Below are positions 16,914 through 52,921 of a DNA stretch of 64,000 nt, in pieces. Numbering within the stretch: position 1 is the stretch's first letter; each line of letters opens with the position of its first letter. Origin of the DNA: Sinomonas atrocyanea (lineage in GTDB: Bacteria; Actinomycetota; Actinomycetes; Actinomycetales; Micrococcaceae); the NCBI RefSeq assembly GCF_030811715.1, contig NZ_JAUSRH010000003.1, forward strand, positions 186,001-250,000, in the 5' to 3' direction. The notes under the pieces are model-generated. The model saw only the letters and a program-made list of their open reading frames with translations. It ran no database searches and was not told where the DNA came from. The position numbers and the translations under genes were made by a program.

Positions 16914-17004
16914 CCACTTCTCCTCCACAGCTGACCCGTTGGGCGGGTTGCCCACATACGCTTCCCGCTCGACGCCGCAGGGCCCGCCGCGGCGAGAGTC
17001 TGGT
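16914..17004 (+). promoter_or_regulatory. Three-block conserved promoter of yraN-comM-dprA-xerC
   Basis: Three blocks are present: CCACTTCTCCTCCACAG (16914-16930), 21 bases, CCACATA (16952-16958), 34 bases, then CGAGAGTCTGGT (16993-17004). The first two blocks and both spacers recur exactly upstream of ssb (52172-52262), where the third block differs at two of twelve positions. The third block ends three bases before the yraN ATG. TTGCCCACA (overlapping block 2) is one base from the actinobacterial DnaA box TTGTCCACA, so a DnaA role is possible. The genes served suggest a competence regulon. Confidence 0.75.
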
Positions 17005-17007
17005 CCC

Positions 17008-17364
17008 ATGAGAGCCAAGGACAGACTCGGTCAGCGCGGGGAACGCCTCGCGGAGGAGTACCTGCGGACGGCTGGTGCGGCCATCCTGGACCGCAATTGG
17101 CGGTGCCGGGACGGGGAGCTGGACATCGTCGCCGCCGACGGCGGGATCCTCGTGGCGGTGGAAGTGAAGGCGCGCCGCTCGTGGGACTGCGGGCACCCGT
17201 TCGAGGCGGTGGATGCCGCCAAGCTGGGCCGGCTCGTGCGTCTGCTCGCAGCATGGGCCGAGGGGCACGGCGTCCGGGCGCGGGCCAGGCGCGTGGATGT
17301 CATCGCCGTCACGGGGCCGGACGGCGGGGCGGCCCAGATTGAGCACCTGAGGGGCGTGGCCTGA
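17008..17364 (+). CDS. yraN: YraN/UPF0102 family nuclease-fold protein
   Basis: This 118-residue protein has the Holliday-junction-resolvase-like fold of UPF0102. It shows the family core LGQRGERLAEEYL, the acidic GELDIVA and the VEVKAR motif. Its biochemical role is not established. It is nearly always next to comM and dprA, as here. The ATG at 17008 lies three bases after the conserved promoter block and has no ribosome binding site, so the message may be leaderless or nearly so. The stop overlaps the comM ATG. Confidence 0.93.
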   Translation: MRAKDRLGQRGERLAEEYLRTAGAAILDRNWRCRDGELDIVAADGGILVAVEVKARRSWDCGHPFEAVDAAKLGRLVRLLAAWAEGHGVRARARRVDVIAVTGPDGGAAQIEHLRGVA

Positions 17365-18914
17365 TGGGCGGCGTCGGACGCGCCCTCGGCGTCGCCCTCG
17401 TGGGCCTGAACGGCTACCTCGTGGAGGTCGAGGCCGACATCGGGCAGACGCTTCCCAGCTTCGTCCTCCTCGGCCTGCCGGACTCAGCGCTGAGCGAGGC
17501 CCGCGAGCGGATCCGGAGCGCCGCCAAGAACAGCGGCCTGCCCCTGAGCCGGCGCAAGCTCACCGTGAACCTGATCCCGGCCTCGCTGCCCAAGCGTGGC
17601 ACCGGCTTCGACCTCGCCATCGCCGTGGCCTCGCTCGCGGCCGCGGGGGACCTGCGGCCGCCGGCGGGCGTGGTCTTCCTCGCCGAGCTTGGCCTGGACG
17701 GCAGGCTCCGGCCCGTGCGCGGCGTGCTCCCGGCGGTCATGGCGGCCGTGCAGGGAGGCCGCCCCGACGTTGTGGTCGCCGGAGCGAATGCCCGTGAGGC
17801 ATCGCTCGTTCCCGGGGCCCGGGTGCACGCCTACGAGTCGCTCGGGCAGCTCGCACTCGACCTCGGCGCCGACCCGGAGGCAGTGTCGGTGCCCACACGC
17901 GAGGACGGCGGGACAGGACAGGACGAGGGGGACGGGCGGCCCGCACGCCGCCCGCTCGCCGTCCCTGACCTGAGGGACGTCTCTGGACAGTCCGAGGCGC
18001 GCACAGCGGTCGAGGTGGCAGCGGCCGGCGGGCACCACATCATGCTCGTGGGCCCGCCCGGGGCCGGCAAGACGATGCTCGCCGAGCGCCTGCCAGGCGT
18101 CCTGCCCGACCTCGACGACGAGGCGGCGATGGAGGTGACCGCGATCCACTCGCTCTCTGGCGAGCCCGGAACGAACGAGCTCATCCGCCGCCCGCCGTTC
18201 GAGAGCCCACATCACACCGCGAGCGCTCCGGCGATCATCGGAGGAGGCTCGGGCATTCCCCGCCCCGGGGCGGCCTCCCGCGCGCACCGGGGCGTCCTCT
18301 TCCTCGACGAGGCGCCTGAGTACGAGCGCCGAGTGCTCGACTCCCTCCGCCAGCCCCTCGAGAGCGGCGAACTCGTGATCCACCGCGCCGCCGGCGCCGC
18401 GGCCTACCCTGCGCGCTTCCAGCTCGTCATCGCGGCCAACCCGTGCCCCTGCGGAAAGGGGACGGGCAAGGCGCTCGAGTGCACCTGCACGGCGCAGGCC
18501 AAGCGGCGCTACTTCGGGCGCCTCTCCGGCCCGCTGCTGGACAGGGTGGACATCCAGCTGCGCGTGAACAAGGTCTCGGCCGTCGACTTCGGGCAGGTGC
18601 CGGCGGGGGAGTCGACGGCGGACGTCGCTCCGCGCATCCTCGCTGCCCGGCACCGGCAGGCAGAGCGGCTGCAGCAGTACGGCCTCGAGACCAATGCGCA
18701 GGTACCCGGGCGCCTCCTGCGGGGCCAGCTCCGCCTCGACCCGGGTTCCACCGCGCTGCTGGACCGTGCGATGGTGGCGAACACGCTCACCGCCAGGGGG
18801 TTCGACCGGGTCCTCCGGCTCGCCTGGTCCATCGCGGACCTGGCCGGACTCGATCGGCCCGGAGGTGACGAGGTGGGGCAGGCGCTCCTCCTGAGGCAGG
18901 CGGTGGCGGCATGA
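17364..18914 (+). CDS. comM: ComM/YifB Mg-chelatase-like AAA+ helicase
   Basis: This 516-residue protein has an N-terminal Lon-like ChlI domain, the AAA+ Walker A GPPGAGKT (230-237), Walker B with GVLFLDEAPE, and a C-terminal Mg-chelatase domain with a Cys cluster (NPCPCGKG...CTCT). In Gram-negative bacteria ComM is a branch-migration helicase that extends integration of transforming DNA. Its N-terminus GRALGVALVGLNGYLVEVEAD is typical. It overlaps yraN upstream and dprA downstream by a few bases, so the three are translated together. Confidence 0.96.
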   Translation: MGGVGRALGVALVGLNGYLVEVEADIGQTLPSFVLLGLPDSALSEARERIRSAAKNSGLPLSRRKLTVNLIPASLPKRGTGFDLAIAVASLAAAGDLRPPAGVVFLAELGLDGRLRPVRGVLPAVMAAVQGGRPDVVVAGANAREASLVPGARVHAYESLGQLALDLGADPEAVSVPTREDGGTGQDEGDGRPARRPLAVPDLRDVSGQSEARTAVEVAAAGGHHIMLVGPPGAGKTMLAERLPGVLPDLDDEAAMEVTAIHSLSGEPGTNELIRRPPFESPHHTASAPAIIGGGSGIPRPGAASRAHRGVLFLDEAPEYERRVLDSLRQPLESGELVIHRAAGAAAYPARFQLVIAANPCPCGKGTGKALECTCTAQAKRRYFGRLSGPLLDRVDIQLRVNKVSAVDFGQVPAGESTADVAPRILAARHRQAERLQQYGLETNAQVPGRLLRGQLRLDPGSTALLDRAMVANTLTARGFDRVLRLAWSIADLAGLDRPGGDEVGQALLLRQAVAA

Positions 18915-20173
18915 GGGCCGAGCAGCAGCCCCGCGGCGGATGGGTCCTTGGCGGGGAGGGGAAGGGGACGGACGCGGTTCGTATCGCACGGGCGGCCCTG
19001 TCCCGGCTCTTCGAGCCCCTCGATCCCGTGGGGATACTGCTCGTGGAGGCGTTCGGCCCCGAGGAGGCCCTCAGGATCGCCTCCGGTCGGGCATCCGCCG
19101 AGGACGTGGCCGCCCTCCGGACGGCCCTCGAAGGCTCGGCTCGCCCGGATCGCGGCGGACCGTCCGGCGCGGGCCCGGCCGCGGCCAGAGTCGGGGCGCT
19201 CGCCAGTGCCCTCGAGCGGTGGGCCCCGCGGGTGCCACACCTCGCGCCTGAGCGGGACCTCGAGGCGATGGCACGGCTCGGCGGCAGGCTGGTGGTGCCC
19301 GAGGACGCCGAATGGCCCGCCGGGCTCCTCGGACTCGGTGCGGAGGGCCCGCTGTGCCTGTGGGTGCGGGGCGATGAGCCCCTGCCGGCAGCCGAGCGCA
19401 GCGTGGCGATCGTCGGATCACGGGACGCCACGGGCTACGGGATCTCGGTCGCGGGCGAGCTGGCCCGCGGAGTGGCGGACCTGGGGCTGACGGTGGTCAG
19501 CGGCGGGGCCTACGGCATCGATGGGCAGGCGCACCGGGCCGCGCTGTCCTCCTCCGCGGCTGCCGTCCCCACCGTCGCCGTGATGGCTGGAGGAGTGGAC
19601 CGCTACTACCCCTCGGGCAACGAGGAACTGCTCCGGGAGGTCGCCCGGCGCGGCCATCTCGTCTCCGAGCTGCCCCCCGGCGCCTCGCCCTCCAAGCATC
19701 GCTTCCTCAAGCGGAACCGCCTCATCGCGGCGATGTCCGCCCTCACCGTGGTGGTCGAGGCCCGATGGCGCTCAGGGGCCCTCAGCACGGCCCGCAGGGC
19801 CGTGGACCTCGGCCGGCACGTCGCGGCGGTCCCCGGCTCGGTGTACAGCGCGAATTCGGCTGGATGCCATCGGCTCCTGCGGGACGGCGCCGCCTGCGTC
19901 ACGGACGCCAAGGAGGCCTACGAATTGGTGGCGCCATCGGGGGAGGGGCTTGTCGACGATCCGGGCTCCCCTGTGCGGGCCCACGACGGGCTCTCCCTCG
20001 TCGACCTCATGGTGCTCGAGGCGCTCCCCGTGCGGCGGGGCGCGGAGGTCGAGAGCCTCGCGGTGGTCGCCGGCCTGAGCGAGGCCGAGATCCGGGCGGG
20101 CCTCGGCAGGCTCTCCCTCGTGGGCCTGTGCGAGCGGTCCGAGGGCGGCTGGCGGCGCAGCAGGCAGGCGTGA
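18911..20173 (+). CDS. dprA: DNA-processing protein DprA
   Basis: This 420-residue protein binds incoming single-stranded DNA and loads RecA during natural transformation. The Rossmann-like core is clear: [43 protein letters not shown] and [17 protein letters not shown]-terminal winged-helix region ([13 protein letters not shown] to the end) resembles the DML1-like domain. The N-terminal roughly 120 residues form the SAM-like extension. The ATG overlaps the comM stop (ATGA). It is the strongest marker that the operon serves DNA uptake or recombination. Confidence 0.97.
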
Positions 20174-20279
20174 GGGCCGCGATCCGTCCCCAGGGCCATG
20201 TGCTGTGCGTGTCGGGCTTGCCGCCGCACGGGTGGCCGCGAAAGATGGAGGAGGCCGAAGGCCGGGACGAGGAGGCTGG

Positions 20280-21203
20280 ATGGACACCGGTGCAGTGCCC
20301 GAGGGGCTGGACGGCCCCCTGCGCTCGTTCCTGCGCTATCTCGCCTTGGAGCGGGGGCGATCCGTCCACACCGTGCGCGCCTACGAATCGGACCTCACCT
20401 CGATGCTCGCCTCCGCCGCCGATGACGGCGCCGTGGACCTGCGGGCCGTCGACCTGGCGATGCTGCGCCGCTGGCTCGGGCGCCAGAGCGAGGCTGGACT
20501 CGCGAGGTCCACCCTGGCCCGGCGGTCGGCGGCTGCGCGGTCGTTCCTCGCGTGGGCGGCCAGGGAAGGCCACCTTGACGCCGACCCGTCGATCCGGCTC
20601 GCTGCACCCAAGCGGCAGACGCACCTGCCCGAAGTACTGCACCGGGACCAGGCCGAGCGGCTGCTTGACGGCGCCTCTGCGGCAGCCGGGGGCGGCGACC
20701 CGATGGCGGTCCGAGACCTGGCGCTCGTCGAGCTCCTGTACGCGACCGGAGTGCGGATCGGCGAACTCGTGGCCCTCGACGTCGACGACGTGGACTTCGG
20801 CCGCCGGACCGTCCGTGTGCTCGGCAAGGGCAACAAGGAGAGGACGGTCCCCTTCGGCGTCCCCGCCGCGGACGCCCTCACCCGCTGGCTCGGTGCCCGG
20901 GCGGCGCTGACGACGAGCTCCAGCGGTGCCGCGCTCTTCCTCGGCGCCCGCGGCGGCCGGCTCGGGCAGCGCCAGGCGCGTGCCGTCGTCGACCGTGCCC
21001 TGCGGGCGCTGGGTGACACCTCGGCCAGCGGTCCGCACGCCCTCCGCCACACCGCCGCGACGCACCTCCTCGACGGCGGCGCCGACCTCCGCAGTGTCCA
21101 AGAGCTCCTCGGGCACGCGAGCCTGGCCACCACCCAGCTGTACACCCACGTCTCCGTCGAGAGGCTGCGGGCGAGCTACCTGGCGTCGCACCCGCGCGCG
21201 TAG
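20280..21203 (+). CDS. xerC: Tyrosine recombinase XerC
   Basis: This 307-residue site-specific recombinase resolves chromosome dimers at dif. The catalytic set is complete: Arg159 in TGVRIGEL, His253-x-x-Arg256 in GPHALRHT, His279 in LLGHASL and the nucleophile Tyr288 in TQLYTH. The SAM-like core-binding domain occupies the first roughly 100 residues. The ATG at 20280 is chosen because GAGGAGG sits just upstream. The gap from dprA is about 106 bases, so it may be transcribed with that operon or from its own promoter. Confidence 0.95.
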
Positions 21204-52004: not shown

Positions 52005-52050
52005 CGATCTCGCGCAGGATCCTGCGGCGAGGGCCCGGGGACATCACGAG

Positions 52051-52123
52051 CGCCCCAGGAGGGAATCGAACCCCCGACCAAGAGATTAGAAGGCTCCTGC
52101 TCTATCCTCTGAGCTACTGGGGC
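52051..52123 (-). tRNA. tRNA-Arg (anticodon TCT)
   Basis: This 73-base cloverleaf has acceptor GCCCCAG/CTGGGGC, a D-arm with AGCTCAGAGGATAGAGC, the anticodon loop CTTCTAA and a T-arm with GGTTCGATTCCC. Position 31-39 of the anticodon stem is a C-T mismatch. Discriminator is G; CCA is not encoded. TAGACT just upstream on the minus strand fits its -10. Confidence 0.95.
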
Positions 52124-52171: not shown

Positions 52172-52262
52172 CCACTTCTCCTCCACAGCCCAGGCGGCCC
52201 GCGCGCCGTCCACATAGGGGCCACGGGCGCTTCTGCCCGGGCCGCCCCGCCGACAGGCTGGT
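52172..52262 (+). promoter_or_regulatory. Three-block conserved promoter of ssb
   Basis: CCACTTCTCCTCCACAG (52172-52188), 21 bases, CCACATA (52210-52216), 34 bases, then CGACAGGCTGGT (52251-52262). This is the same architecture, with identical spacers, as ahead of yraN-comM-dprA. The intervening bases are mostly not conserved, which argues against recent duplication and for selection on the blocks. Confidence 0.75.
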
Positions 52263-52306: not shown

Positions 52307-52921
52307 ATGAACGACACGATCACCCTGCGCGGCTGGGTCGGCACCGAGCCCACGGTGGGACTCACGCGGCACAACACGCCCTACTGCCGGTTCCGGATGT
52401 CGGTGAACGACAGGCGGTTCGACCGCGAACGCCAGTCGTGGGTCGACAACCATACGAGCTGGTACAACATCCAGTGCTATGGGCCGATGGCGGAGAACGT
52501 CGCGGACAGCGTCCGCAAGGGCCACCGGCTGATCGTCATGGGACGGCTGCAGATCAGGAACTTCGAAAGGGCCGACGGGACGCCCGGCACGGAGGCGGAC
52601 ATCATCGCCGCGTCCGTGGGACACGACCTCGCCCTCGGCATGGGCCGGTGGAACCGGCGCAGGGACGAACCGGCGCCGCTTGCGCCCACAGCCGAGGCGG
52701 TGGACGGCGTCGGCGTCGTCGACCCGGTCACGGGGGAGGTCGGGCCCGAGGGGCAGCCCGAGGATCCCTTCCTCGGCGCGCCACCGGACTTCGGCGAGGA
52801 TGGCGGGTTCCCCGGCGGGCACGAGGAGGCGGCGGCCTGCACGGGAGGGGATCCGGACGGCGAGCGCGGGGGCGAGGGGAGCGCGGACGCTGGCTCCGGG
52901 GAGCGCCTCATGTCCGCGTGA
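52307..52921 (+). CDS. ssb: Single-stranded DNA-binding protein paralogue lacking the acidic tip
   Basis: This 204-residue SSB has an OB fold in the first roughly 110 residues (MNDTITLRGWVGTEPTVGL, then WYNIQCYGPMAENVADSVRKGHRLIVMGRL). The tail is acidic and Gly/Pro-rich but ends GERLMSA, without the DDDIPF-type tip that recruits repair partners. A replicative SSB is normally encoded with rpsF/rpsR; this one stands alone, which marks it as a secondary SSB. The promoter matches that of the dprA operon, and its ribosome site is in a hairpin. A competence SsbB-like role is inferred. Confidence 0.92.
   Translation: MNDTITLRGWVGTEPTVGLTRHNTPYCRFRMSVNDRRFDRERQSWVDNHTSWYNIQCYGPMAENVADSVRKGHRLIVMGRLQIRNFERADGTPGTEADIIAASVGHDLALGMGRWNRRRDEPAPLAPTAEAVDGVGVVDPVTGEVGPEGQPEDPFLGAPPDFGEDGGFPGGHEEAAACTGGDPDGERGGEGSADAGSGERLMSA

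Follow-up and report, generated by a model that had tools for sequence, protein, structure and literature searches.

A two-part box ahead of DNA-uptake, Tad-pilus and DNA-processing genes in Sinomonas and its order, a probable promoter element of a natural-competence regulon

The two boxes and the genes behind them

The stretch of Sinomonas atrocyanea DNA analysed here (64,000 nucleotides, hereafter the window) holds two loci encoding DNA-processing proteins, each preceded by a copy of the same promoter box. In the initial annotation this box was described as three sequence blocks; the gene names assigned at that stage (UPF0102/YraN, ComM, DprA, a tyrosine recombinase and SSB) all held. The features are as follows.

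16914-16930, + strand: 5' half-site of the yraN-comM-dprA box, CCACTTCTCCTCCACAG (window search, genus logo and order-wide consensus nnCTnnTCCTCCACAG)
16944-16957, + strand: 3' half-site of the yraN-comM-dprA box, CGGGTTGCCCACAT (logo and model R1)
16996-17001, + strand: predicted -10 hexamer GAGTCT (xAnnnT) within block 3, 38-43 nt past CCACAT, the place of TAGCGT in the best sites
17008-17364, + strand: yraN (UPF0102), start codon 50 nt past CCACAT, predicted to be leaderless
17364-18914, + strand: comM (Mg-chelatase family), second gene of the operon
18911-20173, + strand: dprA
20277-21203, + strand: xerC-like tyrosine recombinase gene, putative operon member
52172-52188, + strand: 5' half-site of the ssb box (window search)
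52202-52215, + strand: 3' half-site of the ssb box, CGCGCCGTCCACAT (logo and model R1)
52254-52259, + strand: predicted -10 hexamer CAGGCT of the ssb promoter, 38-43 nt past CCACAT
52307-52921, + strand: ssb, secondary single-strand binding protein, start 91 nt past CCACAT

Given this distance of its start codon, ssb has a leader. A tRNA-Arg gene (anticodon TCT) is located at 52050-52123 on the - strand, 48 bp ahead of the ssb box. In the yraN-comM-dprA box, the 3' core begins 27 bp after the first TCCACA.

Blocks 1 and 2 (CCACTTCTCCTCCACAG-N21-CCACATA, 24 fixed bases) were found on the + strand at 16914-16958 and 52172-52216, bearing out the earlier claim of two copies. No other place in the window matched, even with three mismatches, and 100 shuffles gave no match. 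In the own genome (4.23 Mb, G000), slightly relaxed blocks 1 and 2 were likewise present at these two places only. Model R1 was built from 52 genus sites, six of them from the own genome, in which all places beyond these six are untrained. It scored the window copies at 55.7 and 54.1 bits, both being among its training sites, and the next place in the window at 12.8 bits. Block 3 lies at 16993-17004 and 52251-52262. Searched alone with at most one mismatch, it gave four matches in the window where 1.97 were expected, a number equalled in 15 of 100 shuffles and thus not significant.

Genus-wide layout and predicted members

A looser pattern, CTCCACAG-N19-23-CCACAT, gave 75 matches across 15 genomes belonging to the genus and none as the reversed control. 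Six of the matches come from the own genome; G010 is the one genome of the 15 without any. Across 58 genomes the pattern gave 91 matches compared with four for the reversed pattern. That the near-strict form fits two places only might suggest two unrelated promoters resembling each other by chance or through a recent duplication. This explanation is exceedingly improbable in view of the lack of shuffle matches and of the genus- and order-wide series of boxes with unrelated spacers, and chance itself was ruled out by the 75 matches against none in the genus together with the empty shuffles.

A logo and distance counts were derived from 53 of the genus sites. The logo reads aYTnsTC-CTCCACAG-N10-GGCGyGTYGTCCACATAGG, followed by about 37 unconserved bases and an AnnnT-type element (TAGCGT at best). 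The layout reads as two half-sites on the same strand, ...TCCACAG and ...YGTCCACAT, 26-29 bp apart, followed by a -10; by eye, both half-sites fit cnYSTYSTCCACA. The -10 is mostly situated 37-39 nt past the end of the box, and a -35 is almost unconserved. TAGCGT itself is missing from both window copies, which have GAGTCT and CAGGCT instead. From CTCCACAG to CCACAT the length was 34 bases in 16 sites, 35 in 35 and 36 in two. The spacers of the window copies are indeed equal in length, as had been claimed, but this is partly coincidence since the 53 sites span just these three lengths. An ATG starts at +49 to +51 after CCACAT in 36 of the 53 sites, and five other windows of 10 nt hold between zero and five. 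Judged from these distances, most boxed promoters would be leaderless, with the ATG usually about 50 nt past CCACAT. Since the AnnnT element occupies the place of the -10 and the ATG lies 49-51 nt past CCACAT, block 3 corresponds to the ordinary -10 and start region, and the proposal of a third, separate element was abandoned. In G008, one operon carries two boxes, ahead of yraN and of comM (L434).

In the model searches, 43-150 candidates were scored per genome. Ranking of the own genome with R1 placed at the top tadZ (an Ssd/CpaE homologue by NCBIfam, with tadA and tadB behind it by reading), yraN-comM-dprA, comEA-comEC, cpaB (SAF/RcpC) and ssb. These were followed by an AbiEi/DUF559-like gene, rpsF then an ssb, an M23 peptidase gene, and a WXG-like gene then a WXG/hydrolase-like gene. 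Next came a DUF559-type gene, an LGT-family gene, DUF4192, recA, the gene of a 343-residue protein and four more AbiEi/DUF559-type genes. comF was found at rank 21, and both recA and comF are weaker matches. Of the 19 places with E < 0.01, 18 lie in the correct orientation ahead of a gene of the recurring set, three loci (L034, L116 and L119) being assigned on weak or absent Pfam matches plus likeness to the other AbiEi/DUF559 types. No gene of the recurring set was found downstream of L117 (E < 0.01) and L121 (rank 20) in this genome. One cis element is thus found ahead of DNA-uptake, pilus and DNA-processing genes, and the anticipated matches before comEA/comEC, comF, tad/pil-like genes and recA were all recovered in the own genome.

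It had further been expected that the element would precede little else. This was followed with 61 further R1 matches in 11 genomes of the genus, chosen by genome among the matches listed and before their genes were known. The same families were found downstream of 55 of them. For 22 of the 61 the best match was a classical gene (tadZ, yraN/comM, ssb, rpsF or comF), as expected. For 33 it was a member of another recurring family (DUF559 types, DUF4192, M23, WXG-like, RNase H and others), which does not fit that part of the expectation. This latter count measures recurrence rather than function: part of the reference set had itself been taken from boxed loci in other species, so that the comparison is partly circular. 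The remaining six comprise four Phd/YefM-type antitoxin genes, one serine recombinase and one place without a clear gene. The boxed Phd/YefM-type genes occur in four genomes of the genus (L411, L439, L451 and L455), and two are followed by a PIN-domain frame. The serine recombinase (L454, G006:C60:42800-45450) starts just past the start of a boxed ssb gene, and an element seems to have integrated at this locus of G006.

Among the members outside the classical set, several AbiEi_4/DUF559-type proteins are boxed per genome (in the own genome L034, L111, L116, L118, L119 and L120, besides other loci of the genus), and in other genera DUF222-HNH genes are boxed. A tie between such nuclease-like, multicopy families and transformation is possible; judged by title, a literature search on DUF559 and competence retrieved no paper linking the two. 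The 343-residue protein (L115, G000:C2:417941) has no Pfam or NCBIfam match, and a box precedes its gene in four or more genomes of the genus.

Members such as recA, ssb, rpsF, RNase H, M23 peptidase and Phd/YefM-type genes would also be in line with a general regulon for DNA damage or envelope stress in which com genes are incidental members. We consider this very unlikely, as the best-scoring members in the own genome are tadZ, yraN-comM-dprA, comEA-comEC, cpaB and ssb. The RecA-NDp/PafBC damage promoter has the motif TTGTCRGTG-N8-TAnnnT. By reading, this motif is absent from both window promoters and present ahead of recA, beside a weak box. At the recA promoter (L114, G000:C2:512019-512112), the weak box and TGTCGGTGGGCATCGGTAGCGT, which we take to match the RecA-NDp/PafBC damage promoter, both end in the same -10, and possibly two inputs act on one start.

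Distribution in the order and the phylum

Of 58 relatives, 55 have ComEA, and the upstream regions of 54 of these 55 genomes were scanned (G038 was left out) with a score combining a TCCACA pair 26-29 bp apart and a -10, using single-base shuffles as control. In the order, 39 of the 54 regions passed p < 0.02 against shuffled sequence and 28 scored above all 540 shuffles, whereas 15 remained below the criterion; a fixed slice was taken per locus, so that a long 5' part can hide a promoter. Within the genus all 15 regions passed, and outside it 24 of 39, where about one was expected. The layout was also present at cpaB, for which a score of at least 24.2 was used without shuffles: 24 of 30 loci reached it, 15 of 15 in the genus and nine of 15 outside. 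Six loci scored lower, and in one of these (G032) a match of model R2 is located just upstream of cpaB. Among the named loci, 41 of 80 were scanned with a cut-off of p < 0.02 and nine passed. These include loci of Micrococcus terreus, M. lylae, Pseudactinotalea terrae, a Zhihengliuella, an Actinomyces and two Arthrobacter, as well as one of Kocuria polaris in which the match lies at an implausible place. Two of five loci of Micrococcus, which belongs to the family of the window, passed (M. terreus and M. lylae, before comEA), and none of the named loci of Citricoccus, Nesterenkonia, Rothia, Glutamicibacter and Paeniglutamicibacter did so at p < 0.02. The element is thus conserved at orthologous promoters, at comEA in 39 of 54 genomes, at 24 of 30 cpaB loci and at nine of 41 named loci.

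With R1, the best E-values were 1e-8 or better in the genus and ranged from 2.6e-5 to 0.19 in 14 genomes of other families. A second model, R2, was built from 45 promoters across the order. At E ≤ 0.01 it matched in 77 of 100 genomes of the family, representing 31 of 32 genera, some of these genomes having supplied training sites. The genes behind its matches include comEA, comF, yraN-comM, tadZ-tadA, DUF4192 and M23, and also DUF222-HNH, radC and WXG100. Of 49 downstream rows (five being repeats), tblastn placed 32. The other 17 consist of eight WXG100-like genes from seven genomes (two checked with Pfam), one RadC, three assigned by eye and five unexplained.

The boxed WXG100 (ESAT-6-like) genes lie in seven genomes of other genera (L489, L491, L503, L461, L466, L476 and L483), two being Pfam-checked and the rest recognised by eye. 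In the genus of the window, the WXG-like and WXG/hydrolase-like genes stand in their place. Competence may be linked to type VII secretion. The RadC case (L465, G211) is a boxed gene with a RadC (UPF0758) N-terminal domain; radC belongs to competence regulons elsewhere.

For the phylum sample, comEA was present in 104 of 119 genomes and 40 upstream regions from outside the order were scanned. The layout was detected in none of these 40 (lowest p 0.028). By eye, two of the 40 (G094 and G150) have TCCACA-type sites with another spacing near comEA.

Candidate activators and comparison with known systems

In the genus and the order, a two-part box lies at a near-fixed distance ahead of the -10 of DNA-uptake, Tad-pilus and DNA-processing genes. 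The window element is very probably a promoter element of a natural-competence regulon. A dedicated regulator or sigma factor had been postulated for it. In an alternative-sigma regulon of the cin-box type the element would occupy the -35/-10 core, which is not what was found here: the box stops upstream of it, mostly 37-39 nt short of a TAGCGT-like -10. A new sigma factor is accordingly disfavoured, the box lying upstream of a normal -10 and resembling an upstream activator site. For a dedicated regulator the case is somewhat better than even: the activator would be a dedicated, previously undescribed protein.

As the box lies mostly 37-39 nt from the -10, too far for contacts with the sigma core, and a conserved -35 is almost lacking, the promoters resemble activator-dependent housekeeping promoters. 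A sequence-specific activator would bind both half-sites, and their arrangement on the same strand leads us to expect a protein that binds head to tail. If the A of the leaderless ATG is taken as +1, the TCCACA cores would lie at about -84 to -79 and -57 to -52. Once bound, the activator would recruit ordinary RNA polymerase to -10 promoters that have almost no conserved -35, and transcription would then begin at or near the start codon. It is proposed that, owing to the near-absence of a -35, expression of the boxed genes remains low as long as the activator is inactive. That the binder would activate and not repress is deduced solely from the lack of a -35 and from the location of the box upstream. 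Places with the 3' half alone (several DUF559-type genes, comF and DUF4192) would be weaker members.

The actinobacterial DnaA box has the core YYRTCCACA followed by G, and in the relaxed box TTWTNCACA the N is position 5. The half-sites could accordingly be DnaA boxes, with DnaA itself as the binder and the replication initiator switching the competence genes, a reading that we regard as possible but doubtful. The TCCACA core is common to the box and the oriC boxes of the genus, and at E ≤ 0.001 the genome contains a single match to DnaA domain IV. Outside the genus, YYR precedes the TCCACA of the 3' half in 22 of 34 boxed promoters (p 1.6e-12 against 1/8), and G follows the core in 22 of 34; with six left-out passing rows restored, the numbers are 24 and 26 of 40. 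In the 5' half, six of 13 core mismatches are at position 5, the N of the relaxed box. However, 28 of 30 comEA and cpaB promoters of the genus have T directly after the 3' half, but only one of 26 oriC boxes read in four genomes does (p 2e-12, a value that is too small because the species are related), oriC boxes being readable in five of 15 regions tried. Of the 34 promoters outside the genus, 17 have C at position 3 of the 5' half; the conserved flanks extend beyond the length of a DnaA box, and no same-strand pair of TTGTCCACA within 30 bp was found in the genome. Furthermore, DnaA is universal, yet the layout was not detected in the 40 comEA promoters elsewhere in the phylum. Compared with DnaA-box promoters, the box thus shares the YYRTCCACA core and same-strand sites and differs in the T after the core in the genus, the near-fixed distance to the -10 and the extended flanks. 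That DnaA acts as direct master activator of competence in the order, which through tandem half-sites of DnaA-box type would tie uptake, the Tad pilus, recombination proteins, WXG100 secretion-type proteins and DUF559/DUF222 nuclease-like proteins to replication initiation, seems slightly more doubtful still.

A different binder is suggested by genetics in Micrococcus luteus. According to the accessible part of the study, mutants with altered comEA/EC expression carry mutations in Mlut_14660, and R64W in this gene alone restored the phenotype of its parental mutant (PMC8467076). The orthologue in the own genome, a small HTH_17 (excisionase-type) protein (G000:C10:75871-76092), is encoded divergently from a SAF/CpaB-like gene, and relatives were found in 53 of 58 genomes. 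They are also present in genomes without a detected box. In 10 of the 15 genus genomes the orthologue's own divergent promoter has TTATCCACA; by eye, however, the repeats that vary less there are TCAAA/GCCAAA. As these repeats differ from the box, the protein was lowered as direct binder, a role that we now consider unlikely. The region between the HTH_17 gene and this second SAF/CpaB-like gene (L254 and L272, G000:C10:75871-76300) holds TTATCCACAG as well as repeats of the TCAAA type, which are seen again in other genomes of the genus.

Competence regulons as a kind are well known, and the box element and some unusual members would be what is new here. In Bacillus subtilis, ComK acts at one activator site (the AT-rich K-box, AAAA-N5-TTTT) common to late com genes, dprA, ssb and recA. 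The present system is alike in having one activator site for such genes and differs in the TCCACA tandem, the mostly leaderless promoters and the Tad-pilus genes; by reading, no AAAA-N5-TTTT K-box was found in either window promoter. In streptococci, the alternative sigma factor SigX reads a short element, the cin-box, common to nearly all com genes. Here a short element is shared as well, but it lies upstream of an ordinary -10. The streptococcal regulon is also mentioned in the study of Mlut_14660 (PMC8467076). The CRP-S sites of Haemophilus and Vibrio, which depend on Sxy (TfoX), are upstream CRP-type palindromes ahead of uptake and processing genes and, in Vibrio, also of a secretion system. 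An upstream activator site and uptake and processing genes are common to both systems, while the present box is a direct repeat.

In natural competence of M. luteus, the accessible text reports that ComK homologues are absent and that transformation needs tad (Flp pilus) genes and ComEC (PMC4322843). ComEA/EC uptake and Flp pili are shared with the system described here, and a boxed comEA was read in M. terreus and M. lylae. In the accessible portions of four studies of M. luteus competence (PMC8467076, PMC12849477, PMC4322843 and PMC6667448), no cis element or regulon is described. One of these, published in 2026, states in its accessible part that the competence regulon "is currently unknown" and that upstream signals and the cascade are still to be identified (PMC12849477). 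Titles and abstract openings in the literature reported no such competence box, and a search for a comEA competence motif in Micrococcales retrieved no paper.

As the box is readable from sequence, it allows candidate members of the regulon to be named across many genera in a single step, and it provides a bait for isolating the regulator. It marks DUF559/AbiEi, DUF222-HNH, DUF4192, WXG-type and M23 proteins as candidates for a role in competence. If the interpretation is true, it suggests that natural transformation is more widespread in the order than one well-studied genus shows.
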